From contig JABWCA010000014.1 of the NCBI GenBank assembly GCA_013359345.1, positions 1-33,031 of the forward strand: a DNA stretch of 33,031 bases. The letters run 5' to 3'. Position numbers and translations under genes: made by a program. Under the pieces are notes generated by a model that made no database searches, had not been told where the DNA came from, and saw nothing but the letters and a program-made list of their open reading frames with translations. The stretch comes from Ignavibacteriaceae bacterium (GTDB taxonomy: Bacteria; Bacteroidota; Ignavibacteria; Ignavibacteriales; Ignavibacteriaceae). Each line of letters begins with the position of its first letter. Positions within the stretch are counted from its first letter, which is position 1. Shown piece after piece: positions 2,303-21,540 of this stretch.

Positions 2303-3034
2303 TTACTTGCTTTCAGTGAATCTTTTAGATACTTCGTCCCAATTGATTGTATTAAACCAGTTGGCTACGTATTCATTTCTTTTATTCTGGTATTTAAGAT
2401 AATATGCATGTTCCCAAACATCAATACCAAGAATTGGTGTTCCTTTTACATCGGCAACATCCATAAGGGGGTTATCCTGATTTGGTGTCGATGAAACAAC
2501 AAGTTTACCGCCCGAAACAACCAGCCATGCCCAGCCTGATCCGAATCTGGTCATTGCGGCATTTGAAAGTTTCTCTTTGAAATTATCAAAACTGTCAAAA
2601 GCAGCATTAATTGCATCAGCAAGAGCACCCTGAGGAGCGCCGCCGCCGGCAGGTTTCATAATCTTCCAGAAGAGATCATGGTTGTAATGTCCGCCGCCGT
2701 TGTTTCTTACCGCAGCAGGATATTTTGAGATATTTGCGAGAAGGTCGTGCATTGAAAGGCCTTCCATCTCTGTTCCGGCTATTGCATTATTCAGGTTATT
2801 TACATAAGCCTGATGATGTCTGCTGTGGTGTATTTCCATGGTCATCTTATCAATAAACGGCTCAAGGGAGTCATACTGATAAGGTAGCACTGTTAATTCG
2901 TATTTTGCCATCTTTATATTCCTTTCGTTAAAACCTGTTACTTTATTTATCATACCGGCGGCGGCTTCCGCTTTTGAAGCAGCCAGGCCGATGCCCAGCG
3001 CAGACAGTGAAGCTATAAATTTTCTCCTGTCCAC
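2303..3034 (-). CDS. Fe/Mn superoxide dismutase with N-terminal twin-arginine signal (second start at 2911)
   Basis: Converts superoxide to hydrogen peroxide and oxygen. From the GTG at 3034 the product is 243 residues and begins [20 protein letters not shown], a textbook twin-arginine (Tat) signal with an AEAAA-like end, then a short linker, then the enzyme. From the internal ATG at 2911 it is 202 residues, the normal family length, starting [19 protein letters not shown]. Both starts have good ribosome sites (GGAG 6 nt before the GTG; AAAGGA 8 nt before the ATG). Metal ligands are visible in [18 protein letters not shown] and DVWEHAYY. The GGGH and NQDNPLM neighbourhoods look more like manganese than iron enzymes, though metal cannot be settled by eye. 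The GTG lies 1 nt after the stop of the A-type carrier gene, so the long form is translationally coupled. Confidence 0.93.
2911..2925 (-). promoter_or_regulatory. Internal ribosome site and ATG for a cytosolic superoxide dismutase
   Basis: AAAGG at 2925-2921 on the minus strand lies 9 nt upstream of the ATG at 2911 (8 nt if the next A is counted). This start yields a protein that begins exactly where ordinary superoxide dismutases begin. Together with the GTG start at 3034 it suggests two products from one gene. Confidence 0.6.
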
Positions 3035-3044
3035 ATTAAACTCC
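3032..3044 (-). promoter_or_regulatory. Ribosome site that supports the GTG start of the Tat form
   Basis: GGAG (3044-3041) lies six bases before GTG (3034-3032) and overlaps the last codons and TAA stop of the upstream gene. It decides the start at 3034 over the earlier in-frame ATG at 3079, which would sit within the neighbour's coding sequence. Confidence 0.65.
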
Positions 3045-3389
3045 GAATGATGATCCGCACCCGCAGGTTTTGGCGGCATTAGGATTGTTGAAAGTAAATC
3101 CGCGGCCGTTTAATCCGTCTGTGAAATCGAGTTCTGTTCCCATAAGATAGAACAGGCTTTTAGCGTCAACAAATAATTTAACGCCATTATGCTCTATAAC
3201 GGAATCAGCCGGTTTGGGTTCTGCATCAAAACCAAGTGTATAGGTTAAACCGGAGCATCCGCCGCCTTTTACACCTACTCTGAGGCCATGGCTTTCAGGA
3301 ATGCTGTTTTCCTGTTTAAGTCTTACAATCTGTCTTGCGGCACTTTCAGTTACCTTAACTTCGGGTTCCATTATGCTTGTTTCTGACAT
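3036..3389 (-). CDS. A-type iron-sulfur carrier (HesB/IscA/ErpA family)
   Basis: A 117-residue A-type carrier that takes newly built [2Fe-2S] or [4Fe-4S] clusters to client proteins. The three family cysteines are all present: C45 in GGGCSGLTY, and C109 and C111 in the C-terminal TCGCGSSF. The N-terminal [11 protein letters not shown] is also typical. The ATG at 3389 has AGGAG 7 nt upstream. I cannot tell IscA, SufA and ErpA subtypes apart by eye, so no symbol is given. It lies downstream of a cysteine desulfurase and complex I, whose many Fe-S clusters are natural clients, and 1 nt upstream of the superoxide dismutase GTG start. Confidence 0.93.
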
Positions 3390-4874: not shown

Positions 4875-6386
4875 TCAGTTGATACCAAGAATTTTACCAA
4901 AATTGCTGGAGAGATTTATAACCGGTGTGAACCACACACCGAAAATAATTACGGGAGTAACCAGCATTAAAAGTAAAATATAATAAATCATCGGTAAAGA
5001 AAAAACAGATTCGCTGATTTCTTTTTCCTCAGGCTGATACAGAGTTCTGAGCAGGTTAAAGTAATAGTAAATTGATATAACGGTATTGAGCAGAGCAATG
5101 AGCGCAATGACCAGATAACCGCTGTCAATGAGGTTGGTGAAAAGATAAAATTTCACGAAGAATCCCGCGGTAGGGGGGAGCCCTATTAATGACACGACAA
5201 ATATTACAAGAGATACCGCAGTTAAAGGATGTTTATAACCAAGGCCTTTGAAAGATGAAATCTCTTCGCTCTCAGAGTATCTTACAAGAATTGTCGAAGT
5301 TAAAAATGCCCCGATATTCATAATTGCATAGATTATGATATATGCAAGCAATGATGAAACTGATTCGGCATTTGAAATCAGAAGAGCGGATAATATAAAC
5401 CCAGCATGCGATATGCCGCTGTAAGCCAGAAGTCTCTTAATATTATTCTGCCTGAGTGCAGCTATATTACCGATAAACATTGATGAAATACTTAACACCA
5501 TTATAATGGCATCATAATTCAGGTTTGCCTTAATTGCCTGTGCCAGTGCAGCATCTGAGAACACCGGGAAAAATGTGTGAACTATCCTCGCAAAGATGCC
5601 GAATGCTGCAACTTTTGTGGTTACGGCAAACAGGGAGGTGACTGATATGGCAGAACCTTCAAATACATCGGGTGACCAGAAATGGAAAGGTGCGGAAGCC
5701 ATTTTGTATCCCATTCCCAGAACAACCATCAGGAATCCCGCCCCGAACAGCGCATAAGAGCCCTTGGTTTCAGTCAGAAAATCCCGTATCTCATTATACT
5801 GAAAAGTGCCCGCAGCACCCCAGATAAGCGAAATGCCGAAAAGCATTACCGCAGAGGCTGAAGCTCCGTAAAGAAAATATTTAATTGATGCTTCACTGCT
5901 TTTTTCAGATAATCTTATATAACCCGCAAGGACATAAGAAATCAGTGACATAAATTCGACTGTCACATAAGTGAGCAGCAAATCAACAGAAGTAACCGAG
6001 ATCATCATGGCAGGCAGAAATGAGACCAGAAGGATATATAACTGACCCTGTCTCATCTTTTCTGCGAGAAGTTCTTTATCAAGATAGGTCAGCAGAATGA
6101 CAACAAGGAAAGTGAACATAATCATTCCGCGGAGTATCAGTCCATAACCGTCATTAACAGCAATGACATAATCTGATCCGGTTGATATTTCACCCATCAT
6201 CCATCCTGATACCGAAATCAGTATTGTGATTGCCGCAATTAATCCTGCTGCAATCAGGGTGATGGCTCCTTTGACTTTATACTTTTTCTGCGAAAGATCT
6301 GTGAATAAAAGCGCAATCAGTATTCCCGTGAGTAAAATCTCAGGAAGATATACGAGAAAAAGCTCCTTGGTTGTATTGAGAATCAT
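4875..6386 (-). CDS. nuoN: NADH-quinone oxidoreductase subunit N
   Basis: A 503-residue antiporter-like membrane subunit of complex I, one of three that pump ions while quinone is reduced. About 14 hydrophobic segments are visible. The conserved glutamate lies in YVTVEFMSLISYVLAGY, and the pumping lysine in GMGYKMASAPFHFWSPDVFEG. Length is normal for NuoN (about 480-500). It begins 9 bp after the nuoM stop and is the last canonical nuo gene, with the cysteine desulfurase starting immediately after its stop codon. Confidence 0.95.
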   Translation of the reverse strand: MILNTTKELFLVYLPEILLTGILIALLFTDLSQKKYKVKGAITLIAAGLIAAITILISVSGWMMGEISTGSDYVIAVNDGYGLILRGMIMFTFLVVILLTYLDKELLAEKMRQGQLYILLVSFLPAMMISVTSVDLLLTYVTVEFMSLISYVLAGYIRLSEKSSEASIKYFLYGASASAVMLFGISLIWGAAGTFQYNEIRDFLTETKGSYALFGAGFLMVVLGMGYKMASAPFHFWSPDVFEGSAISVTSLFAVTTKVAAFGIFARIVHTFFPVFSDAALAQAIKANLNYDAIIMVLSISSMFIGNIAALRQNNIKRLLAYSGISHAGFILSALLISNAESVSSLLAYIIIYAIMNIGAFLTSTILVRYSESEEISSFKGLGYKHPLTAVSLVIFVVSLIGLPPTAGFFVKFYLFTNLIDSGYLVIALIALLNTVISIYYYFNLLRTLYQPEEKEISESVFSLPMIYYILLLMLVTPVIIFGVWFTPVINLSSNFGKILGIN

Positions 6387-6395
6387 CCCGGTACC

Positions 6396-7985
6396 TTATT
6401 TCACGAGGTTATAAAAGTTTAACAGAACACTCTGCAGCGAATTCATAGAGGGCGTTATCATATTCAGGATCGGTGAAGGATAGACGCCGAAGAAAATCAT
6501 CAGGAAAACCAGGGGAGTGAACATAATCCACTCGCGGAGCGTGAGATCTTTAAGCTCGCCCCATTTTTCATTAGTCTTTCCGAAGAAGACTCTTTTCATT
6601 GTCCACAGGAAATATGCAGCTCCCAGGAGCACACCAAGAAGGGCTATCAGGGCTAACATGCGTGTAACTTCGCTCTGGAATGCGCCCATGTATACAAGCA
6701 GTTCCGACACAAATGCGTTAAGTCCGGGAAGGCCGAAACTTGCGAAAAATGCTATTGTGGTGACTCCGGTGTATACCGGCATGACGTTTGCGAGTCCGCC
6801 AAAATCATTTACTCCTCTGAGGTGGGTACGGTCGTAGATTACACCCACAAGAAGGAAGAGAGATGCGGTGGTTATACCATGATTGAACATCTGGAATACT
6901 GCTCCGCTCATTCCGGTTGTATTCACTGCCGCAATTCCCAGCATGACATAACCCATGTGAGAGACAGAAGAATATGCAATGAGTTTTTTGATATCCTCCT
7001 GAGCCATTGCAGCAAGTGCGCCGTATATTATATTAATAACGCCGAACAGACCGGTAAACCACGCAAGCTGCACAGAGAATTCAGGGAAAAGGGGATACAC
7101 TATTCTCAGAATACCATAACCGCCGAGCTTAAGAAGAACACCAGCCAGAACTACGCTGATGGGTGTGGGTGCTTCAACGTGGGCATCGGGAAGCCATGTG
7201 TGGAACGGGAACACAGGAATTTTGATTGCAAAACCGATCATCAGGGCAATAAATGCAAAGTATCTCAGATTATGAGGGTTAAAGTAGGAGAGGAACCCGC
7301 CGTCTTTTATTCCGTTTTTAATGTTGCTCAGTTCAATAAGGTTAAATGTGAACACAGATCCGTTGCCGCTGCCTTCCCTGAAGCTGAGGTAAAGTCCTAT
7401 GAAAACAACCAGTATCAGAACAGATCCTACCAGCGTATAGATAAAGAACTTCATTGCCGAGTATTCTTTTCTGGGTCCGCCCCAGATACCTATCAGGAAG
7501 AACATTGGCAGAAGAACCAGTTCCCAGAAGATGTAGAACAGGAAAAGATCAAGGGAAACAAAAACACCCATCATGCCGGTGTTAAGCAAAAGCAGCAGAC
7601 TGAAAAAACCTTTGACAGATGTATTTATGCTCCATGAGGAGATTGTTGCCAGAAAAACTATCAGCGAGGTGAGGAAGATAAGCGGTGCGCTCAGCCCGTC
7701 AATGCCGAGAAAATAATCCACCTTGAAAGTGCCGACCCATGAAAGATTTTCAATATGAATCCATCTGAACTTTTCAACAAACTGAAAACTTTCATATGTG
7801 TTGAATCCTGCAGCCGAATAATTATAACCGTACCAGATGACTCCGGAGATAATAAGCTGCAATATTGTGACCGCAAGGGAAGTTACTTTTATTGCCGTGC
7901 CCTTTGAAGAGGGAATTAAAAGCACGATAACAACAAATAAAAGCGGTAAAAAAGTTATCAGCGTTAAAAGTGGTAATTCGTTCAT
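6396..7985 (-). CDS. nuoM: NADH-quinone oxidoreductase subunit M
   Basis: A 529-residue antiporter-like complex I subunit. Key membrane residues stand in the glutamate helix LFYIFWELVLLPMFFLIGIWG and in the lysine segment AIKIPVFPFHTWLPDAHVEAPTP, the strongest signature of NuoM. PISVVLAGVLLKLGGYG and the AMAQEDIKKLIAYSSVSHMG segment also match. It lies 13 bp after nuoL and 9 bp before nuoN. A 271-codon frame on the opposite strand (6822-7637) is only a shadow of this gene. Confidence 0.96.
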   Translation of the reverse strand: MNELPLLTLITFLPLLFVVIVLLIPSSKGTAIKVTSLAVTILQLIISGVIWYGYNYSAAGFNTYESFQFVEKFRWIHIENLSWVGTFKVDYFLGIDGLSAPLIFLTSLIVFLATISSWSINTSVKGFFSLLLLLNTGMMGVFVSLDLFLFYIFWELVLLPMFFLIGIWGGPRKEYSAMKFFIYTLVGSVLILVVFIGLYLSFREGSGNGSVFTFNLIELSNIKNGIKDGGFLSYFNPHNLRYFAFIALMIGFAIKIPVFPFHTWLPDAHVEAPTPISVVLAGVLLKLGGYGILRIVYPLFPEFSVQLAWFTGLFGVINIIYGALAAMAQEDIKKLIAYSSVSHMGYVMLGIAAVNTTGMSGAVFQMFNHGITTASLFLLVGVIYDRTHLRGVNDFGGLANVMPVYTGVTTIAFFASFGLPGLNAFVSELLVYMGAFQSEVTRMLALIALLGVLLGAAYFLWTMKRVFFGKTNEKWGELKDLTLREWIMFTPLVFLMIFFGVYPSPILNMITPSMNSLQSVLLNFYNLVK

Positions 7986-7998
7986 ATTATAAACTGGT

Positions 7999-10107
7999 TT
8001 AAATTGATGCTAAAACTATCAAAAAGATTAATGTGAAGACTACAAAAAGAAGGTAGTCCTGAACTTTGCCGGTCTGGATTTTCCTGACCGCAAAGCCGGT
8101 TTTATCAGTTATCCATGCGGTGAAATTGACAGCACCGTCAACAACATATTTATCAAAAATTCCTGCGGCTGTTGAAATCCAGACAGTTAATGTTCCCATG
8201 AAATTAACGATCCCATCAACCACGTATTTATCAAATAATGCAATCAGCTGAGTAAATTTCACAGCCAGAGGTGAGATGATATCTGTGTAAAAATAGTCGA
8301 GATAATACCCGTTATACAGAATACGTGTGAATTTTCCTTCGGGATCAGGTGTAAGTTTCTTCATTCTGAAAAGTATGATCGCCAGAAGCGCACCCAGCAG
8401 GGTGACACCTGTTGCCGCAAAAGGAGTGATCAGCTCTGCCTGATGTTTAAGTTCACTCTCAGGACCCTCACTAAGGCTGTACGGATAAAGTGAATCGGCG
8501 GGAGCGGAAGAACCGAGTTTTTCAGCAGTCAGATAGGGGAAAAGATAGTGAGAATCTGCATGCCCTATCGGATTCAGGACATAAAGCACCCAGACGCTCA
8601 GCACCGCCAGAACTATCAGAGGCAGCTTAATTGCATAGCCATGCTCATGTATATGATGATGATGCTCTCCGTGGTCATCATCTGAGTGAGCTGCGGTGTT
8701 CTCATCTGAAACTTCATGATGATGTGAGGATTCTGCGGGCAAATCAGCTTTATCTTTCCTGAATACCACCAGCCACACTTTCACAGAATAATAAGCCGTG
8801 AAAAGGGAAGTGAGCAGCATAAGAGCTGCTATCAGGTAATTTCCGTTTATCAGACCAAAAAGAATTGTGGATGCAACCACACCCTCTTTTGAAACGAAAC
8901 CGCTGGTGAATGGGGCTCCGCAGATGGCGAGTGCAAAAACCACGTATACTGCAGTTGTGACAGGCAGAAATGCTGCAAGGCTTTTCAGTTTTCTGATATC
9001 CTGCTCATGGGTTGAGTGAATGACTGAGCCTGAAGTAAGAAATAATCCTGCCTTAAAAAATGCATGCGTTACAAGGTGGAAAAATGCAAAATATACCGAA
9101 CCGGTGCCCAGAGCGGCAAACATCATTCCGAGCTGTGAAATTGTTGAATAGGCAAATATTTTTTTAATGTCCGTCTGCACCGTTGCAACTGAAGCGCCAT
9201 AAACTGCAGAGATGCCACCGATTAATGCCACCACATAAGCGGCAGTGCCGTTAAGAAGCGGTGAGGCAATAATCATCAGATAGACACCTGCTGCAACCAT
9301 GGTTGCTGCATGGATAAGTGCCGATACCGGAGTGGGACCTTCCATTGCATCAGGCAGCCAGTTCTGAAGCGGGAACTGAGCAGATTTTGATACCGCCCCG
9401 CCGAATATCATTATGCCGAGAAGGGTAAGTCCCCAGTCTGCACCGAAAGGCAGGTTCCCCTGATTTACATATTCAAATATCTTTGTGATGTCAAATGTTT
9501 TATAATGAATCAGTGCAATCAGAATCCCGATAAAGAACATCATATCACCGACCCTGTTCATCAGGAATGCTTTCATCTGAGCCGCTGCAGCGCTGTCTTT
9601 ATGCCTCCAGAAGCCGATAAGTTTGTATGAGGCAAATCCCACAAGTTCCCAGAAAATGTATAAAATCATCAGTGAAGGTGACGCTATCAGCCCTGACATT
9701 GAGAAAACGAAGAATGATATCAGTGAGAAATATCTGTGTATATCAGGATCACCGTGCATATAATCAGTTGAGTAAACAAGGACCACAAAAGCGACTATAT
9801 TCACCACGGTAAGCATTATCACATTGAGATTATTAACCCAGTATGAAAGTGAAATTGAAAATGATTCTGACCCTGCTGCAGAATTTATTGCCAGCCACTC
9901 AAATGAATGATTCCAGTTTTCATGAGGGAAAAACTGAAGTTTAAGGTAAAGTGCGGTAAGGGATAAAGCGAGTCCGATGCCGCCGAAAATGACATTGATA
10001 TAATATACTTTGCTGAGTTTTCTTCCGATAAAGAAAGAGATCAGAAATCCTGCAAGAGGAGTAAAGACTGCTGAAAGAAACAGGTTAATCACAATCTGAG
10101 GCTGCAA
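7999..10107 (-). CDS. nuoL: NADH-quinone oxidoreductase subunit L, with His-rich loop and repeated tail
   Basis: A 702-residue subunit L, the distal antiporter-like pump of complex I with the long lateral helix. The glutamate (E154, FWELVGFASYKLIG) and lysine (K241, GGAVSKSAQFPLQNWLPDAMEGPTP) are in place. It is longer than the roughly 610-residue E. coli protein. Residues about 462-490 form a hydrophilic loop with 11 histidines among Asp/Glu, and near the C-terminus FDKYVVDG occurs twice, at 625 and 651, as a 26-residue tandem repeat before the final membrane helix. The start is TTG, supported by GGAG 7 nt upstream. It follows nuoK by 4 bp. Confidence 0.96.
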   Translation of the reverse strand: MQPQIVINLFLSAVFTPLAGFLISFFIGRKLSKVYYINVIFGGIGLALSLTALYLKLQFFPHENWNHSFEWLAINSAAGSESFSISLSYWVNNLNVIMLTVVNIVAFVVLVYSTDYMHGDPDIHRYFSLISFFVFSMSGLIASPSLMILYIFWELVGFASYKLIGFWRHKDSAAAAQMKAFLMNRVGDMMFFIGILIALIHYKTFDITKIFEYVNQGNLPFGADWGLTLLGIMIFGGAVSKSAQFPLQNWLPDAMEGPTPVSALIHAATMVAAGVYLMIIASPLLNGTAAYVVALIGGISAVYGASVATVQTDIKKIFAYSTISQLGMMFAALGTGSVYFAFFHLVTHAFFKAGLFLTSGSVIHSTHEQDIRKLKSLAAFLPVTTAVYVVFALAICGAPFTSGFVSKEGVVASTILFGLINGNYLIAALMLLTSLFTAYYSVKVWLVVFRKDKADLPAESSHHHEVSDENTAAHSDDDHGEHHHHIHEHGYAIKLPLIVLAVLSVWVLYVLNPIGHADSHYLFPYLTAEKLGSSAPADSLYPYSLSEGPESELKHQAELITPFAATGVTLLGALLAIILFRMKKLTPDPEGKFTRILYNGYYLDYFYTDIISPLAVKFTQLIALFDKYVVDGIVNFMGTLTVWISTAAGIFDKYVVDGAVNFTAWITDKTGFAVRKIQTGKVQDYLLFVVFTLIFLIVLASI

Positions 10108-10111
10108 CTTT

Positions 10112-10420
10112 TTACTCCTTGAGTGTTTTTATTTCATTCGGATCAATCGATCCGAAATTTCTGAAAATATTAATAAAGATAGCAAGCGCAACCGCGGTTT
10201 CGGCCGCAGCAATAACTATCACTATCAGCACCGCCACATCACCTCTGAACGGTGTGTCTGAAAAGCGTGCAAATGCAACAAAATTGAGATTTGCAGCATT
10301 AAGAATGAGCTCAAGACCCATAAGAATGGTTACTGAATTACGCCTTGTTAATATGGCGAACAGACCGAGGCTGAATAAAACAGCGCTTACCGCAATAAAA
10401 TGTGTTAAGGTGATACTCAT
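10112..10420 (-). CDS. nuoK: NADH-quinone oxidoreductase subunit K
   Basis: A 102-residue membrane subunit of complex I (MrpC-like) with three transmembrane helices. The conserved glutamates that relay charge are visible in MGLELILNAANLNFVAF and in AAAETAVALAIFI. Length is normal. The gene starts 1 nt after the nuoJ stop and ends 4 nt before the nuoL TTG, so it is embedded in the operon. Confidence 0.96.
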   Translation of the reverse strand: MSITLTHFIAVSAVLFSLGLFAILTRRNSVTILMGLELILNAANLNFVAFARFSDTPFRGDVAVLIVIVIAAAETAVALAIFINIFRNFGSIDPNEIKTLKE

Positions 10421-10421
10421 G

Positions 10422-10910
10422 TCATTTTCTCGCTATACTTGAAGCCGCAATCAGAATTACGAGCAGCAGAAGCCCGAGTATTTCGAATACGATCAGATAA
10501 TCATTAAAAAGTATCAGGGCAATCTGATTTAACTCTATGTTTTTCAACACTTTACCAAGTGCAGCCTCACGGAATTCCATCGCGCCTTTTATGATGAATC
10601 CGGCAAGAATGCCGGTCAGAACGAGAGCCGGAATTACAAAATGAAATTCGGTTTTGAACTGCAGGTCACGGATTCTGTTTGTGAGCATGATACCGTAAAC
10701 AATAAAGACAAGAACACCCCCGACGTAAACAAGAACCTGAATAAATGCAAGAAACCTTGCATCAAGCAGGAAAAACAAACCGGAAATGCCCACAAGGGTT
10801 GTTAGCAGGCCCACAGCCGCATAGAGCAGATTCTTTGAGAACACCACAACCGCCGCGGAGGCAAGAACTATGAAGGAGAAAAAGTAAAAGTAATAATCAA
10901 AGTATTCCAT
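10422..10910 (-). CDS. nuoJ: NADH-quinone oxidoreductase subunit J
   Basis: A 162-residue membrane subunit of complex I with five predicted hydrophobic segments. The third, with FIQVLVYVGGVLVFIVYGIML, is the conserved helix with a pi-bulge in this family. Its ATG shares one base with the nuoI stop codon (TAATG), giving translational coupling. Confidence 0.95.
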   Translation of the reverse strand: MEYFDYYFYFFSFIVLASAAVVVFSKNLLYAAVGLLTTLVGISGLFFLLDARFLAFIQVLVYVGGVLVFIVYGIMLTNRIRDLQFKTEFHFVIPALVLTGILAGFIIKGAMEFREAALGKVLKNIELNQIALILFNDYLIVFEILGLLLLVILIAASSIARK

Positions 10911-11443
10911 TATTCTCCTTTGCTTTCCAGCAGGTTTTTGGCTGCTGCCTTTCCTTCTTCATATTTCCTGAAATTCTCCACTTTCTCAATGGCTTCTTCC
11001 TTTGAAAGAGTGGTGAAATTGTAAACCAGGTTATTTCTCTCATACTCTGAATATTCGTAAACAGGTGTCATGTAGATGCAGTCGGTGGGGCAGGGGAACA
11101 CGCACAATTCACAATAACAGCATTTCGCAAAATCGATTTCAAATTTCGTAACCCATAGAAGCTTTTTCTTTCCCTGGGAGGTTTTGCCGAGATCCTCGGT
11201 CGGGAGCGATTTAACCGTTTCAATATCAATGCAGCTTACAGGGCAGGCTCTTGAGCACTGGTCACACCCTATACAGTCATCCATATTCACATAAAGGCGG
11301 TTTCTTACTCTTTCGTTAAGGGGTACTTTAACTTCGGGGTATTGTATGGTTACGGGGTCCCTGAACATGTTTTTCCAGGTGATACCCATGCCGATAAATA
11401 TTGTCGTGACAGTCTGATATATGTTTCTGAAGTATTCTCTCAT
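10910..11443 (-). CDS. nuoI: NADH-quinone oxidoreductase subunit I, 2x[4Fe-4S] ferredoxin
   Basis: A 177-residue peripheral-arm subunit that carries clusters N6a and N6b. Two CxxCxxCxxxCP motifs are seen: C57, C60, C63, C67 (CIGCDQCSRACP) and C108, C111, C114, C118 (CCYCELCVFPCP). The N-terminal helix lies along the membrane arm. It gives electrons to the NuoB cluster. It lies 10 bp after nuoH and overlaps nuoJ by 1 bp. In an 11-subunit enzyme lacking NuoEFG this subunit would be near the electron entry point, where ferredoxin is thought to dock in related enzymes. Confidence 0.96.
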   Translation of the reverse strand: MREYFRNIYQTVTTIFIGMGITWKNMFRDPVTIQYPEVKVPLNERVRNRLYVNMDDCIGCDQCSRACPVSCIDIETVKSLPTEDLGKTSQGKKKLLWVTKFEIDFAKCCYCELCVFPCPTDCIYMTPVYEYSEYERNNLVYNFTTLSKEEAIEKVENFRKYEEGKAAAKNLLESKGE

Positions 11444-11453
11444 CGTACCGGAC

Positions 11454-12512
11454 TCAAATCATAGTGATAAACGTTACTAAAACAAATAAGAACAATGCAA
11501 TCGGGATCAGATATTTCCAGCATAATGACATGAGCTGATCTATTCTGAGCCTCGGGAGCGTCCATCTCAGCCACATCTGTACAAACACCAGACCCAGCGC
11601 CTTGATTGTAAACCAGAAGAACTGTTCGGCCGGCACAAGCCAGCTTAAGTTAAGGGCATCTCCGAGATAACCGAAAGGTGACTGGTAGCCTCCGAAAAAC
11701 ACCGTTGCAATGAGCGCCGAGACTGCAAACATATTTGCATACTCTGCAAGGAAAAACAGCGCAAACTTGATTCCTGAAAACTCAGTGTGAAAACCTGCCA
11801 CAAGTTCCGATTCTGCTTCTGGCAGATCAAACGGCGTTCTGTTCACTTCGGCAAGTGTGCTTATAAATAGTATGACAGCAGATATTATCATTATCGGGAT
11901 AAATATAAACTTTTTCCACGTTAAGTCAGGTCCGCCAAGTATATACCAGTTAAATATGTTAGCTGTCTGCTTCTCACTTATTTCTGTAAGGCTCAGTGAC
12001 TGCGTTATGACAAAAAGAATCATCACAACCATCACACTGGGAATCTCGTAACTGATTATCTGCGCTGCAGATCTGAGTGCTCCCAGAAGCGAGTATTTAT
12101 TGTCTGATGACCATCCTGCAACAAGTATCCCGATTACAACAATTCCGCTGACCGAGAGGAGAAAAAGCAATCCCAGATCAAGGGTTGCACCGGTGAGAAT
12201 CGAGTTAAACGGTAGTGCAGCATATATCAGATAAGACCCCAGGAACACGACAATCGGTGATGCCGAGGTCAGGAATCTGTCAGAATGGCCGGGTCTCATA
12301 TCTTCTTTCTGCAGAAGTTTAAGAATATCGGCAGTGGTCTGGAGCAGTCCGAGAGGTCCTGTACGGTTGGGGCCGATTCTGTTCTGCATATAAGCTGACA
12401 CCTTACGTTCGGCGTAAACCGCCATCAGTGCAAACGGAATCACAAAAAGAAGCGGAAATATGGCCAGAAAGAGGTAATAAAGCATCGGGTAGCCATTCAT
12501 GAAGTCTGTCAT
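11454..12512 (-). CDS. nuoH: NADH-quinone oxidoreductase subunit H
   Basis: A 352-residue membrane subunit that forms the quinone channel between the peripheral and membrane arms. The signatures AERKVSAYMQNRIGPNRTGP and EVNRTPFDLPEAESELVAGFHTE are present (shown in part), carrying charged residues of the E-channel. The ATG at 12512 has GAGG about 8 nt upstream and overlaps the nuoD stop by 4 bp (ATGA). In most bacteria nuoE, F and G lie between nuoD and nuoH; here they are absent. Confidence 0.96.
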   Translation of the reverse strand: MTDFMNGYPMLYYLFLAIFPLLFVIPFALMAVYAERKVSAYMQNRIGPNRTGPLGLLQTTADILKLLQKEDMRPGHSDRFLTSASPIVVFLGSYLIYAALPFNSILTGATLDLGLLFLLSVSGIVVIGILVAGWSSDNKYSLLGALRSAAQIISYEIPSVMVVMILFVITQSLSLTEISEKQTANIFNWYILGGPDLTWKKFIFIPIMIISAVILFISTLAEVNRTPFDLPEAESELVAGFHTEFSGIKFALFFLAEYANMFAVSALIATVFFGGYQSPFGYLGDALNLSWLVPAEQFFWFTIKALGLVFVQMWLRWTLPRLRIDQLMSLCWKYLIPIALFLFVLVTFITMI

Positions 12513-13630
12513 CTGTCAACCTCACCCAGAACAATATCTATTGAGCCAAGAATTGCAACTATATCTGCGACCAGGTTTCCTCTGCAAAGCTCATCAAGAA
12601 GCATGAGATGAATGAATGAAGGGGGACGCACTTTCACCCTGAACGGATTATTTGCACCTTTACTTATAATAAAGTATCCGAGCTCACCCCTTGGGTTTTC
12701 AACTCTTGTGTATAACTGACCGGCAGGAACCTTTATTCTTTTCGGGATTGCGCTTTTTACGTCACCATCGGGTATATTATCAATAGCCTGCTCAATGATT
12801 TTTATGCTTTCTTCCATTTCACGGACCCTGATATAGTAACGATCCCAGCAGTCACCTGTTGTGCCCATTGCGCCATCGCCCACGGGTATTTCAAAATCGA
12901 ATTTATCGTAGATGGAATAAGGATCATCTCTGCGCAGATCCCATTTATAACCGCTGGCTCTCAGATTAGGACCTGTTACGCCGTAATTAATGGCCTTTTC
13001 AATATCAAGCACGCCAAGATTGGCAGTTCTGTCTATAAATATCTTATTGCCTGTAAGCAGGCGGTTAAGTTCTGTCAGTTTTGGCTTGAAGTAAACTAGA
13101 AATTCTTTGGTAAGCCTTACAAAATCAGGATGAATCTCTTTTGAGAGTCCTCCCGGCCAGATGTAATTATAAAGGAGACGTGCTCCGGAAACCAGCTCAA
13201 AAAGGCTCAGAATCTTTTCCCTGTCACGGAAACAGAAAAGGAAGGGGGTGAATGCTCCCACATCAAGTCCGTAAGTTCCCACCGCAACCAGATGCGACGC
13301 GATTCTCTGAAGCTCACCTAATATAACCCTCATGTATTCAACCCGCGGGGGTACTTCAATGCCGGCCATTCTTTCAACGGCGAGCGCAAAGCCGAATTCA
13401 TTGTACATTGCCGCGAGGTAATCCATGCGGTCAACATAAGGAACAATCTGAGGATAAGTAAGGGCTTCTGTGTGCTTTTCGAAACAGCGGTGCAGATAAC
13501 CGATATGAGGAATAACCTCTTTAACTATTTCACCGTCAAGCTTAACTTCGAGTCTGAGCACACCGTGAGTTGACGGGTGCTGCGGACCCATATTGATGAC
13601 CATTTCTTCAGAGACAAATTCTTTTATCAT
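12509..13630 (-). CDS. nuoD: NADH-quinone oxidoreductase subunit D
   Basis: A 373-residue 49-kDa-type subunit that builds the quinone site with NuoB. The motif NMGPQHPSTHGVLR near the N-terminus contains the quinone-contacting histidine, and IGYLHRCFEK and MDYLAAMYNE follow as expected. It ends GSIDIVLGEVDR, the usual C-terminus. It is not fused to NuoC. ATG shares a base with the nuoC stop (TGATG). Confidence 0.97.
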   Translation of the reverse strand: MIKEFVSEEMVINMGPQHPSTHGVLRLEVKLDGEIVKEVIPHIGYLHRCFEKHTEALTYPQIVPYVDRMDYLAAMYNEFGFALAVERMAGIEVPPRVEYMRVILGELQRIASHLVAVGTYGLDVGAFTPFLFCFRDREKILSLFELVSGARLLYNYIWPGGLSKEIHPDFVRLTKEFLVYFKPKLTELNRLLTGNKIFIDRTANLGVLDIEKAINYGVTGPNLRASGYKWDLRRDDPYSIYDKFDFEIPVGDGAMGTTGDCWDRYYIRVREMEESIKIIEQAIDNIPDGDVKSAIPKRIKVPAGQLYTRVENPRGELGYFIISKGANNPFRVKVRPPSFIHLMLLDELCRGNLVADIVAILGSIDIVLGEVDR

Positions 13631-14175
13631 CAGTAGGGTACCTTTATACCCTGATAAAATTCAGGATTTTGATAATCTTTTCTCAGGGGAAAGCCAAATT
13701 CCCAGTCATAAGGCATAAGAATGCGGATAAGATTAGGATGACCTGTAAAAATAATGCCGTACATATCGTATGCTTCGCGCTCCTGCCAGTCGGCACTGAC
13801 CCATAGAGGGGTCACACTCGGAACCTCAGGATTAGCTTTTGGAACAATAGTTTTTATTATGATCTTTTTCCTGTTGGGAAGCGATTCAAGATGATAAACC
13901 ACACTCAGGTTTCCGCCTGTCAGAGTTTCCGAGCCGTCATCATTTTTGGTCTTAACGGCGTCATCCTCATCATTGCCGGTAAGCAGAACCAATGAATCAA
14001 ACCCCAGTGCAGGATTATCATAAAGTTCTGTCATCACAACGGAAATCAGCTCAGCCGGAACTGTGAGGAAAGTTTCGAACGGGGATTCGGTAATTACGAT
14101 CTGTGAGGCTTTCTCTTCTCCGAGCAGGAGAGTGAACCGGTCTGTAACCGATTTTATAAATTCTGTATCAGCCAA
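13630..14175 (-). CDS. nuoC: NADH-quinone oxidoreductase subunit C
   Basis: A 181-residue 30-kDa-type peripheral subunit. The family signature is in the last third: [20 protein letters not shown] and [18 protein letters not shown] (family REVWDMFGI and GHPxLRRIL). The N-terminal 100 residues are poorly conserved, as in relatives, and include an acidic loop ([17 protein letters not shown]). It overlaps nuoB by 8 bp and nuoD by 1 bp. Confidence 0.95.
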
Positions 14176-14650
14176 CTCTGCTCTCGTTTCTGATTTTTTC
14201 CTGAAGTTTCAGAAGCCCTTCAAGAAGTGCTTCCGGTCTTGGGGGGCATCCCGGGATGTAGACATCAACGGGGATAACTCTGTCCACTCCTTTAAGCACA
14301 TGATAACCATGATCCCAGTACGGGCCGCCGCAGTTTGCGCATGAACCCATTGAAATGACGTATTTGGGATCCGGAATCTGCTCGTAGAGTCTTTTAACTC
14401 TTGAAGCCATCTTTAATGTAACGGTTCCGGAGATAATAATTATATCCGACTGGCGGGGTGATGGCCGCGGTATCACACCGAACCTGTCAAAATCATAGTG
14501 AGAAGCTGAAGTTGCCATCATTTCAATGGCACAGCATGCAAGGCCGAACCCAACCTGCCATAATGATGAAAGGCGTGCCCAGTTAAGAAGTGCATCAAGA
14601 TTTGTTACAATGATGTTTGAGTCTGTGAATTCTTTATCCAGATAACCCAT
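14168..14650 (-). CDS. nuoB: NADH-quinone oxidoreductase subunit B, [4Fe-4S] cluster N2
   Basis: A 160-residue subunit that holds cluster N2, the last electron carrier before quinone. The tandem cysteines C39-C40 ([10 protein letters not shown]) and C104 and C135 ([20 protein letters not shown]) are the expected four ligands. Its ATG shares a base with the nuoA stop (TAATG). Confidence 0.97.
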
Positions 14651-15030
14651 TAGTCCCTGTTCTCCGGTTCTGCAGTTTTTTCGTTCCAGTCAAGATCACC
14701 CTTTTTCCACTCGTATGCCAGACCAAGGATCAGTAAACCGATGAATATCAGTCCCGAAAAATACATAAACCAGTTTTTATCAGGCAGGGTGGTAATCCAG
14801 GGAATTATGAGGACAAGTTCTACGCCAAAAATGAGAAAAAGGAGGGCAATGATATAATATTTGATGCTCAGCCTTACATAAGGTGAGCCCTGTGCATCCT
14901 CACCGCATTCATAACTCAGATTCTTTTCGTATCCGGGCCTGCGGGGTCTGAGGATTTTTGCAGTCACATACGCAATGATTCCAAAGCCTATTGCAACCAG
15001 CGTGAAAAAAGAAACACCAATTAATTCCAT
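14650..15030 (-). CDS. nuoA: NADH-quinone oxidoreductase subunit A
   Basis: A 126-residue membrane subunit with three helices; the loop [17 protein letters not shown] is the family hallmark (family YECG). [11 protein letters not shown] lies in the second helix. I chose the ATG at 15030; a TTG at 15039 in frame would add three residues. A GAG lies 4 nt before the ATG. It is the first gene of the nuo operon, about 108 nt downstream of a Bacteroidota-type promoter match. Confidence 0.95.
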
Positions 15031-15144
15031 AAAACTCAAAAATTATCGGTGTAAATATAATCAGAATTCATTTATCTGATTAGAATGTTAAAAAAAATGT
15101 GTCTTGATTAAATAAAACAGAATTAATAATCTGTTTTTCATCTC

Positions 15145-19066: not shown

Positions 19067-19829
19067 TCTGTTTGAAAAAAAGTATTTCGAGCAGTTACTG
19101 ATGGAATCAACCTCCAGTATCAATCTTGGTGCCGACTGGAATAATTTTATCAACCAGGTCATAATGATGCTGGCACATAATGAAAAACCGGCCCAGATTT
19201 TAAGATTTATTGAGAAGGAGAAGGAGCTTTTCCCTTTTAATCAGATTTTATGGGACAGCCTTCTTTTTCTGAATTCACCCGGACTGATGATACGTGATCT
19301 GAGCGGCAGACTCATCTCGGATTCACTGAAACTTAAAGATGTGATAATCAGATTGCAGAAGACCATAACTCCTGCAACAATAAGAGATCTGACCACGAGC
19401 ATCTCGGATCATTTAAGGACAACAAAAGAGATAACCCCGGTACCTGAGGAGCAGAAACAGAGCCTGCCCCCCAAATACAGGAATTATCTGCTTGAGTCAC
19501 TGAGATTCCTTCTTAATTTTATTGACGAACTTAAAAGCGGAAATGCTAAAAGAAGCGACCTTGCTTATTATGCCGGCATTATGCGTGAAAATACAATTTT
19601 CTGCAGCAGGCACCAGTTAATTCTGCCCGAAAAGTACTTTGATTTCCTTGAAAAAATTCTGCTTAAGATGAGCAGCGGAATAACCCCGGCTGATGAAGAG
19701 AATTTTGAGGGGATCAGAAATTGTATGATAGTGCTTTTTTCCAATCTGAAGGATGTTGATAAGGATATCAGCAATTTTATGGATAAGGCAGAAGATTTTA
19801 TACAGAAACATTCAAACCCGGAAAATTAA
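19056..19829 (+). CDS. Unknown helical protein between alr and the GDP-mannose gene
   Basis: A 257-residue soluble protein I cannot place. It is nearly all predicted helix, with no signal peptide or membrane segment, no obvious catalytic motif and only two cysteines. A proline-rich hinge near residue 130 (PVPEEQKQSLPPKYR) splits it into two helical halves. It starts inside alr (11-bp overlap) with GAGG close upstream, and its TAA stop shares a base with the next ATG. This packing argues that it is truly expressed with cell-envelope sugar and D-alanine genes. Confidence 0.8.
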   Translation: MLDNLFEKKYFEQLLMESTSSINLGADWNNFINQVIMMLAHNEKPAQILRFIEKEKELFPFNQILWDSLLFLNSPGLMIRDLSGRLISDSLKLKDVIIRLQKTITPATIRDLTTSISDHLRTTKEITPVPEEQKQSLPPKYRNYLLESLRFLLNFIDELKSGNAKRSDLAYYAGIMRENTIFCSRHQLILPEKYFDFLEKILLKMSSGITPADEENFEGIRNCMIVLFSNLKDVDKDISNFMDKAEDFIQKHSNPEN

Positions 19830-20896
19830 TGGAAACTTATGCAGTTATAATGGCCGGCGGAGTTGGTTCCAGATTCTGGCCCAGAAGCCGTGAAAGAAGG
19901 CCCAAACAGTTATTAAATATTCTCAGCGAAAAAACTCTTATTCAGAACACAAGAGACCGGCTTGATGGTCTCATACCCGATAAAAATGTTCTTGTTATCA
20001 CAAATAAACTTCAGGCAGAACAGATTCAGAAACAGCTGCCCGGCATTCCGGCAGAAAATATCATAGCTGAACCGTTCGGGAGAAATACGGCTGCATGTAT
20101 AGGGCTGGCTGCAAAGATAGTTGAAAAGCGGTCGCCTGGTGCGGTAATGGTTGTTGTGCCGGCCGATCATATAATACGTGATGTTCCGGGATTTATAAGC
20201 ATTCTTGGCAAGGGTATTGATTTTGCACGTGAAGAAAAAGCTCTTGTAACAATCGGGATAGAACCCACCCGCCCGGAAACAGGCTACGGATATATTCAGA
20301 TTGAACAGAATCCTTTCACAGATCATATTTATAAAGTATCAACTTTTGCAGAGAAACCGAATTTTGCCACAGCCGTCAGGTTTGTTCAGAGCGGCGATTT
20401 CTTCTGGAACAGCGGAATGTTCATCTGGAGAAGCGATGTCATTCTGGAAGAACTTGCACTTTATCTCCCGGAAACCGCAAAACATCTTAATGAACTCGAT
20501 TCATCTGTTGATAATGAAAATTTTTATCCCGTGCTTGAAGAAGTGTACGGAAAGCTTAAGAGTATATCAATAGATTATGGCGTGATGGAAAAATCAACCA
20601 GAGTTTATCTTCTTAAAGGTTCTTTCAGCTGGAGCGATGTGGGCAGCTGGGAAGAAATTTATAATCTTGAGAAAAAAGATGATAACGGCAATGTGCTTGA
20701 GGGTAAAGTTTTTGCCGAAATGGTTAATGATTCATATATTTATTCTCCCGATATTTTTACTGCTGTGGTGGGAGTTGATAACGTAGTGGTTATAAACACA
20801 GGTGACGCTCTTCTTATATGCAGGAAAGACCTCAGCCAGGAAGTTAAAAAGGTGGTTGAACACCTTAAATTAAACAATAATTCTGATATACTTTGA
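19829..20896 (+). CDS. Mannose-1-phosphate guanylyltransferase
   Basis: A 355-residue nucleotidyltransferase that makes GDP-mannose from mannose-1-phosphate and GTP. The motif GGVGSRFWPRSRERRPKQ (residues 10-27) binds the nucleotide. EPFGRNTAACIGLAA, VVPADHII, ETGYGYIQ, FAEKP and FFWNSGMFIW are all family landmarks. There is no C-terminal mannose-6-phosphate isomerase domain, so it is the single-function type (ManC/RfbM-like). GDP-mannose feeds surface polysaccharides and glycosylation. It overlaps its neighbours on both sides by 1 bp (TAATG and TGATG). Confidence 0.93.
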   Translation: METYAVIMAGGVGSRFWPRSRERRPKQLLNILSEKTLIQNTRDRLDGLIPDKNVLVITNKLQAEQIQKQLPGIPAENIIAEPFGRNTAACIGLAAKIVEKRSPGAVMVVVPADHIIRDVPGFISILGKGIDFAREEKALVTIGIEPTRPETGYGYIQIEQNPFTDHIYKVSTFAEKPNFATAVRFVQSGDFFWNSGMFIWRSDVILEELALYLPETAKHLNELDSSVDNENFYPVLEEVYGKLKSISIDYGVMEKSTRVYLLKGSFSWSDVGSWEEIYNLEKKDDNGNVLEGKVFAEMVNDSYIYSPDIFTAVVGVDNVVVINTGDALLICRKDLSQEVKKVVEHLKLNNNSDIL

Positions 20897-21540
20897 TGTC
20901 TAAAAAAGTCATTACCGAAAGAGATGTGAACGATGCCCTGAAAAAGGGGCTTAAGTCTTTGGAAATTCCTGAGAACGCTCTCATAACGCCTCTGGCGGCC
21001 GATAGAATTAAAATATCGGGTATAGGTGTTGTAAAAGCAGCTCCGGCTCCGGTGCACTCTCACATATCTTTCGCTGATGATGAAGCTAAGCGGGTTGTTT
21101 CGGTCGGTTGTGATCATAACGGATTTCAGATAAAGCAGGTGCTTATGCAAATGCTTAAAGATTCAGGCTTTGTCGTAAAAGATGAGGGCTGGTATGACTC
21201 ATCACCCGCAGATTACCCTGAAATTGCATTCAGAGTGGCAAAGGCCGTATCTGCAGGTGAAGCTGCTTTCGGGATCGTCATAGACGCCACCGGCAATGCC
21301 TCGGCAATTGTGGCTAATAAAATAAAAGGGGTCAGGGCGGCGGTTTGTTATAATGAATTCACGGCAGACAGTGCCAGATCTCATAATAATTCCAATCTTC
21401 TTGCCCTGGGCGCAAAATCTCTGGGTGAGGAAACCATTAAGTCGGTTCTGAAAACCTTCATAAATACGCCTTATCAGGGAGGCAGACATCAGAAAAGACT
21501 TGATATGATGTTAAAGATAGAAAATAATTCGCTTAAATAA
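20896..21540 (+). CDS. RpiB/LacAB-family sugar-phosphate isomerase homologue lacking the catalytic Cys
   Basis: A 214-residue protein whose residues 67-205 match ribose-5-phosphate isomerase B: GCDHNG (71-76), the loop FGIVIDATGNASAIVANK, RSHNNSNLLALGAK and GGRHQKRLDMM with the phosphate-binding His and Arg. In E. coli RpiB the loop has the base Cys66 (ILICGTGIG); here aspartate (D130) stands in its place. The glutamate used as base by the mycobacterial enzyme is also missing. About 65 extra N-terminal residues precede the fold, with ITERDVNDALKKG and ALITPLAADR. The ATG at 20896 overlaps the previous stop (TGATG). It may have a different sugar phosphate or reaction; I would not assume ribose-5-phosphate isomerase activity. 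Confidence 0.85.
   Translation: MSKKVITERDVNDALKKGLKSLEIPENALITPLAADRIKISGIGVVKAAPAPVHSHISFADDEAKRVVSVGCDHNGFQIKQVLMQMLKDSGFVVKDEGWYDSSPADYPEIAFRVAKAVSAGEAAFGIVIDATGNASAIVANKIKGVRAAVCYNEFTADSARSHNNSNLLALGAKSLGEETIKSVLKTFINTPYQGGRHQKRLDMMLKIENNSLK

Follow-up and report, generated by a model that had tools for sequence, protein, structure and literature searches.

We have analysed a 33,031-nucleotide stretch of DNA from an Ignavibacteriaceae bacterium (contig JABWCA010000014.1 of assembly GCA_013359345.1; the whole stretch is called the window here), and in particular one of its genes, which encodes an RpiB-like protein with an additional N-terminal domain. The gene occupies positions 20896-21540 of the forward strand, with an ATG at 20896 and a stop codon at 21538-21540, and codes for 214 amino acids, in agreement with the coordinates and frame given in an earlier interpretation made from the DNA letters alone (the sequence-only reading). 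Its start overlaps the stop of the preceding mannose-1-phosphate guanylyltransferase gene (TGATG). Three parts of the protein can be distinguished, all encoded on the forward strand. The N-terminal domain, about residues 3-49 (20902-21042), is defined by matches to the N-terminus of EutQ, the C-terminus of PduM and the C-terminus of TIGR02536, and by its AlphaFold fold. It is followed by a flexible linker of about residues 50-67 (21043-21096), with low pLDDT near residues 51-60, and by an RpiB/LacAB domain (PF02502) at residues 68-205 (21097-21510), recognized by profile match and structure superposition. The PF02502 match is complete (E-value 5.3e-47, 159.7 bits against a cut-off of 24.7). 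The protein clears the subfamily cut-offs of NF004051 and TIGR00689 and misses that of the TIGR01120 rpiB equivalog by 0.65 bit (138.0 versus 138.65 bits).

An AlphaFold2 model built with an alignment of 82 homologues has a mean pLDDT of 93. Its core superposes on C. thermocellum RpiB (3he8) with a root-mean-square deviation of 0.7 Å over 145 columns. In the same model about residues 1-48 fold into a small alpha/beta domain, with pLDDT of 90-98 in blocks, and the linker has pLDDT near 60. Both the sequence and the length of the linker vary among relatives, and constraint is weaker there. The N-terminal extension reported in the sequence-only reading is real and conserved, and consists of a folded domain (about residues 2-48) plus the linker. 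In four pairs of relatives the overall ratio of nonsynonymous to synonymous substitution is 0.07-0.24; nonsynonymous change is far below synonymous change in both the N-domain and the core, and the ratio is higher in the linker. The relatives that carry the N-domain, called long forms here, are under purifying selection.

In an alignment with the E. coli and C. thermocellum proteins, Asp130 (codon 21283-21285, forward strand) falls without gaps on E. coli Cys66, the catalytic base (GIVIDATG versus GIVICGTG). Ser136 (codon 21301-21303, forward strand) falls on E. coli position 72, where mycobacterial RpiB has its catalytic Glu. The protein therefore lacks both of the classical RpiB catalytic marks, as the sequence-only reading had stated. 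Its further statement, that the phosphate-binding and fold residues are kept, also proved correct: His99, Arg133, His134, Arg137, Asp9, His10 and Tyr43 (E. coli numbering) are all present within the PF02502 fold. Compared with the E. coli and C. thermocellum enzymes (2vvr, 3he8), the fold (0.7-0.8 Å), the phosphate-binding Arg and His residues, the ring-opening His99, Asp9 and Tyr43 are the same, whereas Cys66 is replaced by Asp and Ile72 by Ser, Gly67 and Gly71 are often Ala or Pro, and the N-domain and linker are additional.

The Asp is not peculiar to this copy. We compared 88 long forms with 37 other RpiBs from the order and from a wider sample of the phylum; sequences from one plasmid, one Synergistaceae contig and three solved structures were included too. 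Of the 88 long forms, 87 have Asp at position 66, and the remaining one (L145) is a decayed copy. Of the 37 short forms, 35 have Cys there, and two have a mycobacterial-type loop with Glu at position 72. Position 72 is Ser in 86 of the 88, and the 82 long forms that were aligned all share Asp130, Gly133 and Ser136. Pro or Ala often stands at position 71, and Thr, Val or Ala at position 68. Asp9, His10, Tyr43, His99, Arg133, His134 and Arg137 are each retained in about 95% or more of the 88. A phylogeny had been named beforehand as the check on whether the Asp form is a clade, and in a tree computed without the motif columns (a short alignment, 140 columns) a single change separates long from short forms, with SH-aLRT support of 88. 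The occurrence of Asp in 87 of the 88 long forms exceeds chance; the Asp form represents one group in the tree and is neither a slip nor an oddity of one genome. Low substitution ratios and retained ligand residues indicate a constrained protein with an intact ligand site, in which only the proton-transfer loop has been rebuilt. We found no report of an RpiB fused to a EutQ-like domain, or of an Asp-type RpiB, in the literature searched, although this search was not exhaustive. When the contigs of relatives were scanned with the single window protein, there were two matches, both without the N-domain. The best match of a plasmid search, in Methylomagnum, was set aside: it is an ordinary 145-residue RpiB with a mycobacterial-type loop and no shell genes nearby.

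The kinship of the N-domain lies with proteins of bacterial microcompartments (BMCs). When the 42 N-domains of the order were scanned alone, all 42 matched TIGR02536 (best 7.8e-12), 30 matched the EutQ N-terminus and 12 matched PduM; a second PduM model was matched by five of the 42, and three further NCBIfam families by one member each. The window copy alone scored 8.8e-8 to TIGR02536 and only 0.07 to EutQ. Pfam matches were weak, the best being 'PDU_like', and a sequence search for solved structures of the domain gave none. An N-domain profile search of 59 close relatives gave five non-RpiB matches below 1e-3, all located within or next to loci of shell genes; one belongs to an EutQ. In Salmonella, sfGFP is targeted to the Eut BMC by the EutQ N-terminus (residues 1-99) alone, and helices H1/H2 (9-41) bind the shell (PMC12487888). 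It is these helices, H1/H2 (9-41), that align to the N-domain, so that, judged by homology, the window protein carries the counterpart of that half of the EutQ linker which binds the shell. The domain, of about 45 residues, is shared by EutQ H1/H2 and the C-termini of PduM and TIGR02536, and binds shell proteins in EutQ (PMC12487888); here it is fused to RpiB instead of a cupin, and a counterpart of the cargo-binding H3/H4 of EutQ is not seen in the window protein. We propose the N-domain as a shell-docking module, which by analogy would bind the shell here as well.

Other proteins with related domains were encountered. Small proteins in BMC loci, in frames of 100-106 amino acids (L139:7338-7655, L141:8524-8838 and L143:9228-9527), have a C-terminus belonging to the N-domain family (TIGR02536/PduM-like) and are possible stand-alone shell linkers. 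At six distant loci (L175, L182, L190, L192, L193 and L194) the long RpiB has as its neighbour an open reading frame (ORF) of at least about 240 residues, which has a second EutQ-like domain at its C-terminus. These ORFs correspond to no Pfam or NCBIfam family; degenerate PduL was considered and rejected, with a profile-comparison probability of 0.7% and no Pfam or NCBIfam match of note.

The sequence-only reading had remarked that no shell gene is seen, which is correct for the window and incorrect for the genome (G000; 4.26 Mb in 454 contigs, 99.4% complete). Two BMC-H genes lie on contig C56, one of them clearing the EutM cut-off; a BMC-T gene lies on C453, adjoining a PduS/RnfC-like gene; and three BMC-P genes (PF03319) lie on C60 and C314. 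The shell genes are thus on separate contigs, none of them in the window, and in relatives assembled as a single contig (e.g. G006 and G056) they are hundreds of kb apart. The BMC-H pair (L059) stands among housekeeping genes near the glycolate oxidase genes GlcD and GlcF, and does so likewise in three relatives. Scattered shell genes together with a triplet of BMC-P genes are the marks of the FRAG BMCs described in Ignavibacteriae and related groups, to which no function or signature enzyme has been assigned (PMC8217296). Both marks are found in this genome, a likeness judged on gene layout. No cargo for FRAG BMCs was reported in the literature searched, a search that was not exhaustive. In one relative (G008) an aldehyde dehydrogenase gene adjoins the PduS-like and BMC-T genes (L157:5466-7040) and is a candidate FRAG enzyme.

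The long RpiB and the shell occur together across genomes without being linked. Among 395 genomes from the phylum, the long RpiB is present in 71 and the shell mark, PF00936, in 80: 70 genomes have both, 1 has only the long RpiB, 10 have only shell genes and 314 have neither (Fisher p 1.6e-65, to be read in the light of kinship among genomes, which is uncorrected). The sole long form without a shell gene is in a genome that is 81% complete (G367). The pattern spans 16 families, and several of these (f4, f10 and f24) contain genomes that have both alongside others that have neither, which points to more than one inheritance event. Among the 59 close relatives, every genome with a long form has shell genes. 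The gene is nonetheless remote from them, at about 100 kb or more from the listed shell genes in single-contig relatives (e.g. G006, G056, G063 and G086) and at about 21 kb in two genomes of one genus (G040 and G042). The resemblance of the N-terminus to microcompartment enzymes, which the sequence-only reading had pointed out, is strongly supported by the TIGR02536, EutQ and PduM matches, the shell genes in the genome and this co-occurrence, and we regard an association of the protein with a BMC as very likely. The protein could still be an ordinary cytosolic isomerase of ribose-5-phosphate or allose-6-phosphate that tolerates the change of Cys to Asp, its link to BMCs being a by-product of shared ancestry. 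The intact RpiB fold and ligand residues, and the conserved place of the gene in a housekeeping operon of the order, fit such an enzyme. We nevertheless consider it very improbable, as outside RpiB the N-domain family occurs in BMC proteins, the co-occurrence extends over 16 families of which several also contain genomes lacking both, and the short Cys-type RpiBs of the same sample are not restricted to shell-bearing genomes.

A second enzyme follows a similar pattern. The DeoC aldolase of the window's genome, encoded on C423, is extended at its N-terminus by about 65 residues. Extended DeoC was counted where the match to the extension started at residue 45 or earlier and was not riddled with internal stops; the count excludes extensions whose divergence prevents alignment, probably those of family f40. 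It is present in 57 of the 395 genomes, 56 of which have the long RpiB and 56 of which have shell genes; against the long RpiB the division is 56 with both, 1 with DeoC only, 15 with RpiB only and 323 with neither (p 8e-53). Four genomes without the long RpiB (G038, G025, G018 and G412) have a DeoC without the extension. The extension is modelled as one long helix of low confidence followed by a disordered linker, and may be likened to encapsulation peptides, as a resemblance only. Decayed long-form RpiBs were seen at L144:6894-7502 (G023) and L145:6755-7369 (G049); both genomes retain shell genes, and G049 retains extended DeoC too.

DeoC and RpiB form the pair common to all sugar-phosphate-utilisation (SPU) compartments, where both genes lie in the shell locus (PMC8217296). 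The system described here likewise combines a PF02502 isomerase-like protein with a DeoC aldolase in BMC-bearing genomes (PMC4207490, PMC8217296). Of the two domains that define SPU loci, PF01791 and PF02502, both are encoded in this genome, in extended proteins, and neither gene lies on a contig where we found shell genes. In contrast to the SPU arrangement, then, neither gene is in a shell locus, and the RpiB bears a EutQ-type N-domain. The identity to C. thermocellum RpiB was given as 48-53% for the first SPU RpiBs (PMC4207490, PMC8217296); for the window protein it is 39%.

Taken together, we consider it probable that the product of the gene is an isomerase docked as cargo to the shell of an SPU-like BMC. 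This BMC would be dispersed, with its shell genes at other places in the genome, in the manner of FRAG BMCs. The N-domain would hold the isomerase against the inner side of the shell, in the way that the homologous helices H1/H2 attach EutQ to the shell in Salmonella, and by this analogy a location inside or on the shell is quite likely. The long RpiB and the extended DeoC would be a dispersed version of the SPU pair, and pentose phosphates would be broken down or interconverted within the shell, such that the aldehyde stays enclosed. The retained residues make it likely that the protein is catalytically active. Asp130 would replace Cys66 as the general base moving a proton between C1 and C2 of an aldose or ketose phosphate, an assignment that we hold to be reasonably probable. 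In M. tuberculosis RpiB the base is Glu75, so a carboxylate can stand in for Cys in this fold (PMC4783025); there the carboxylate is at E. coli residue 72, and in the window protein it is at 66, with Ser at 72. Ribose-5-phosphate is our tentative prediction for the main substrate.

Several observations weigh against this reading. The mutations C69S and C69A abolish the activity of trypanosomatid RpiBs (PMC4783025). Thr68 and Gly71 are often replaced in the long forms, which may mean a different reaction. The operon around the gene consists largely of housekeeping genes and is far from the shell genes. Canonical PduL (PF06130) was not found in the genome, and shell genes occur without the long form in a number of genomes (G025, G277, G170, G304, G417, G003, G011, G024 and others, of which G003, G011 and G024 belong to the 59 close relatives); some of these shell-bearing genomes have other BMC loci and some are incomplete. 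Deoxyribose-5-phosphate has no 2-hydroxyl and cannot be a substrate of an aldose-ketose isomerase, so the joint action of DeoC and RpiB is not explained in detail.

The loss of activity in Cys mutants of other RpiBs (PMC4783025) also suits a non-catalytic scaffold, in which an RpiB fold inactivated by the change to Asp would serve as a dimeric linker and, like EutQ, tether DeoC or other cargo to the shell. The homology of the N-domain to the shell-binding part of EutQ, the failure to retain Thr68 and Gly71 of the proton-transfer loop, and the presence of an RpiA to cover the usual reaction agree with such a role. A scaffold would not need the seven ligand residues that nearly all of the 88 long forms retain, however, and the Asp is invariant with no drift, decayed copies being confined to G049 and G023. 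Binding without catalysis, which the sequence-only reading had entertained, is for the same retained residues not favoured, and we judge the scaffold quite unlikely.

The choice of substrate is less firm. A classical rpiB is absent from the genome, but RpiA is present, and the gene should therefore not be needed for ordinary ribose-5-phosphate isomerisation. This agrees with a BMC enzyme of altered chemistry, which shares the BMC part of the reading we prefer and in which the Asp/Ser loop would serve an isomerase of a different sugar phosphate, an epimerase or a lyase, instead of the RpiB reaction. The coupled changes at positions 66, 67, 68, 71 and 72 across the long forms point the same way, and RpiB proteins are able to isomerise a variety of sugars (PMC4207490). 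On the other side, the phosphate-holding and ring-opening residues are unchanged and there is no direct evidence for another substrate; we consider altered chemistry somewhat unlikely.

Within the taxonomic order, the gene belongs to a conserved operon that runs alr, an unknown gene, manC, RpiB, pyrK, pyrD, folC and rho. The gene immediately upstream (19829-20896, forward strand), whose product we take from sequence knowledge to be a ManC-like mannose-1-phosphate guanylyltransferase, is a conserved neighbour and is not claimed as part of the system. Because the operon consists mostly of housekeeping genes, the GDP-mannose and D-alanine neighbourhood, offered as a clue in the sequence-only reading, is probably not informative. 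Elsewhere in the window, the reverse strand carries a superoxide dismutase-like ORF (2303-3079) whose N-terminus is twin-arginine-like and whose true start may be an internal ATG, and a row of Complex I genes (4875-15039), presumably nuoN, M, L, K, J, I, H, D, C, B and A, as named by eye; no nuoE, F or G was seen in the window.

The catalogue of 2021 lists FRAG BMCs without a known function (PMC8217296), a consequence of shell genes that are scattered and mostly remote from enzyme genes. The system considered here has the same scattered shell genes and three BMC-P genes (PMC8217296); where the catalogued FRAG BMCs have no assigned signature enzyme, the Asp-type RpiB and the extended DeoC are proposed here. 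It is an even call whether Asp66 with Ser72 constitutes a third type of RpiB active site, confined to shell-docked enzymes, which with extended DeoC would mark the FRAG BMCs of the phylum as dispersed SPU-like metabolosomes with cargo unlinked from their shell genes. The shell-docking domain and the near-perfect co-occurrence provide a direct, testable candidate for FRAG chemistry. A carboxylate at the position of the catalytic Cys, fixed across a large group, is a natural experiment in enzyme evolution, and the shell-binding module of EutQ is suggested as a portable tag that may reveal unlinked cargo in other genomes.
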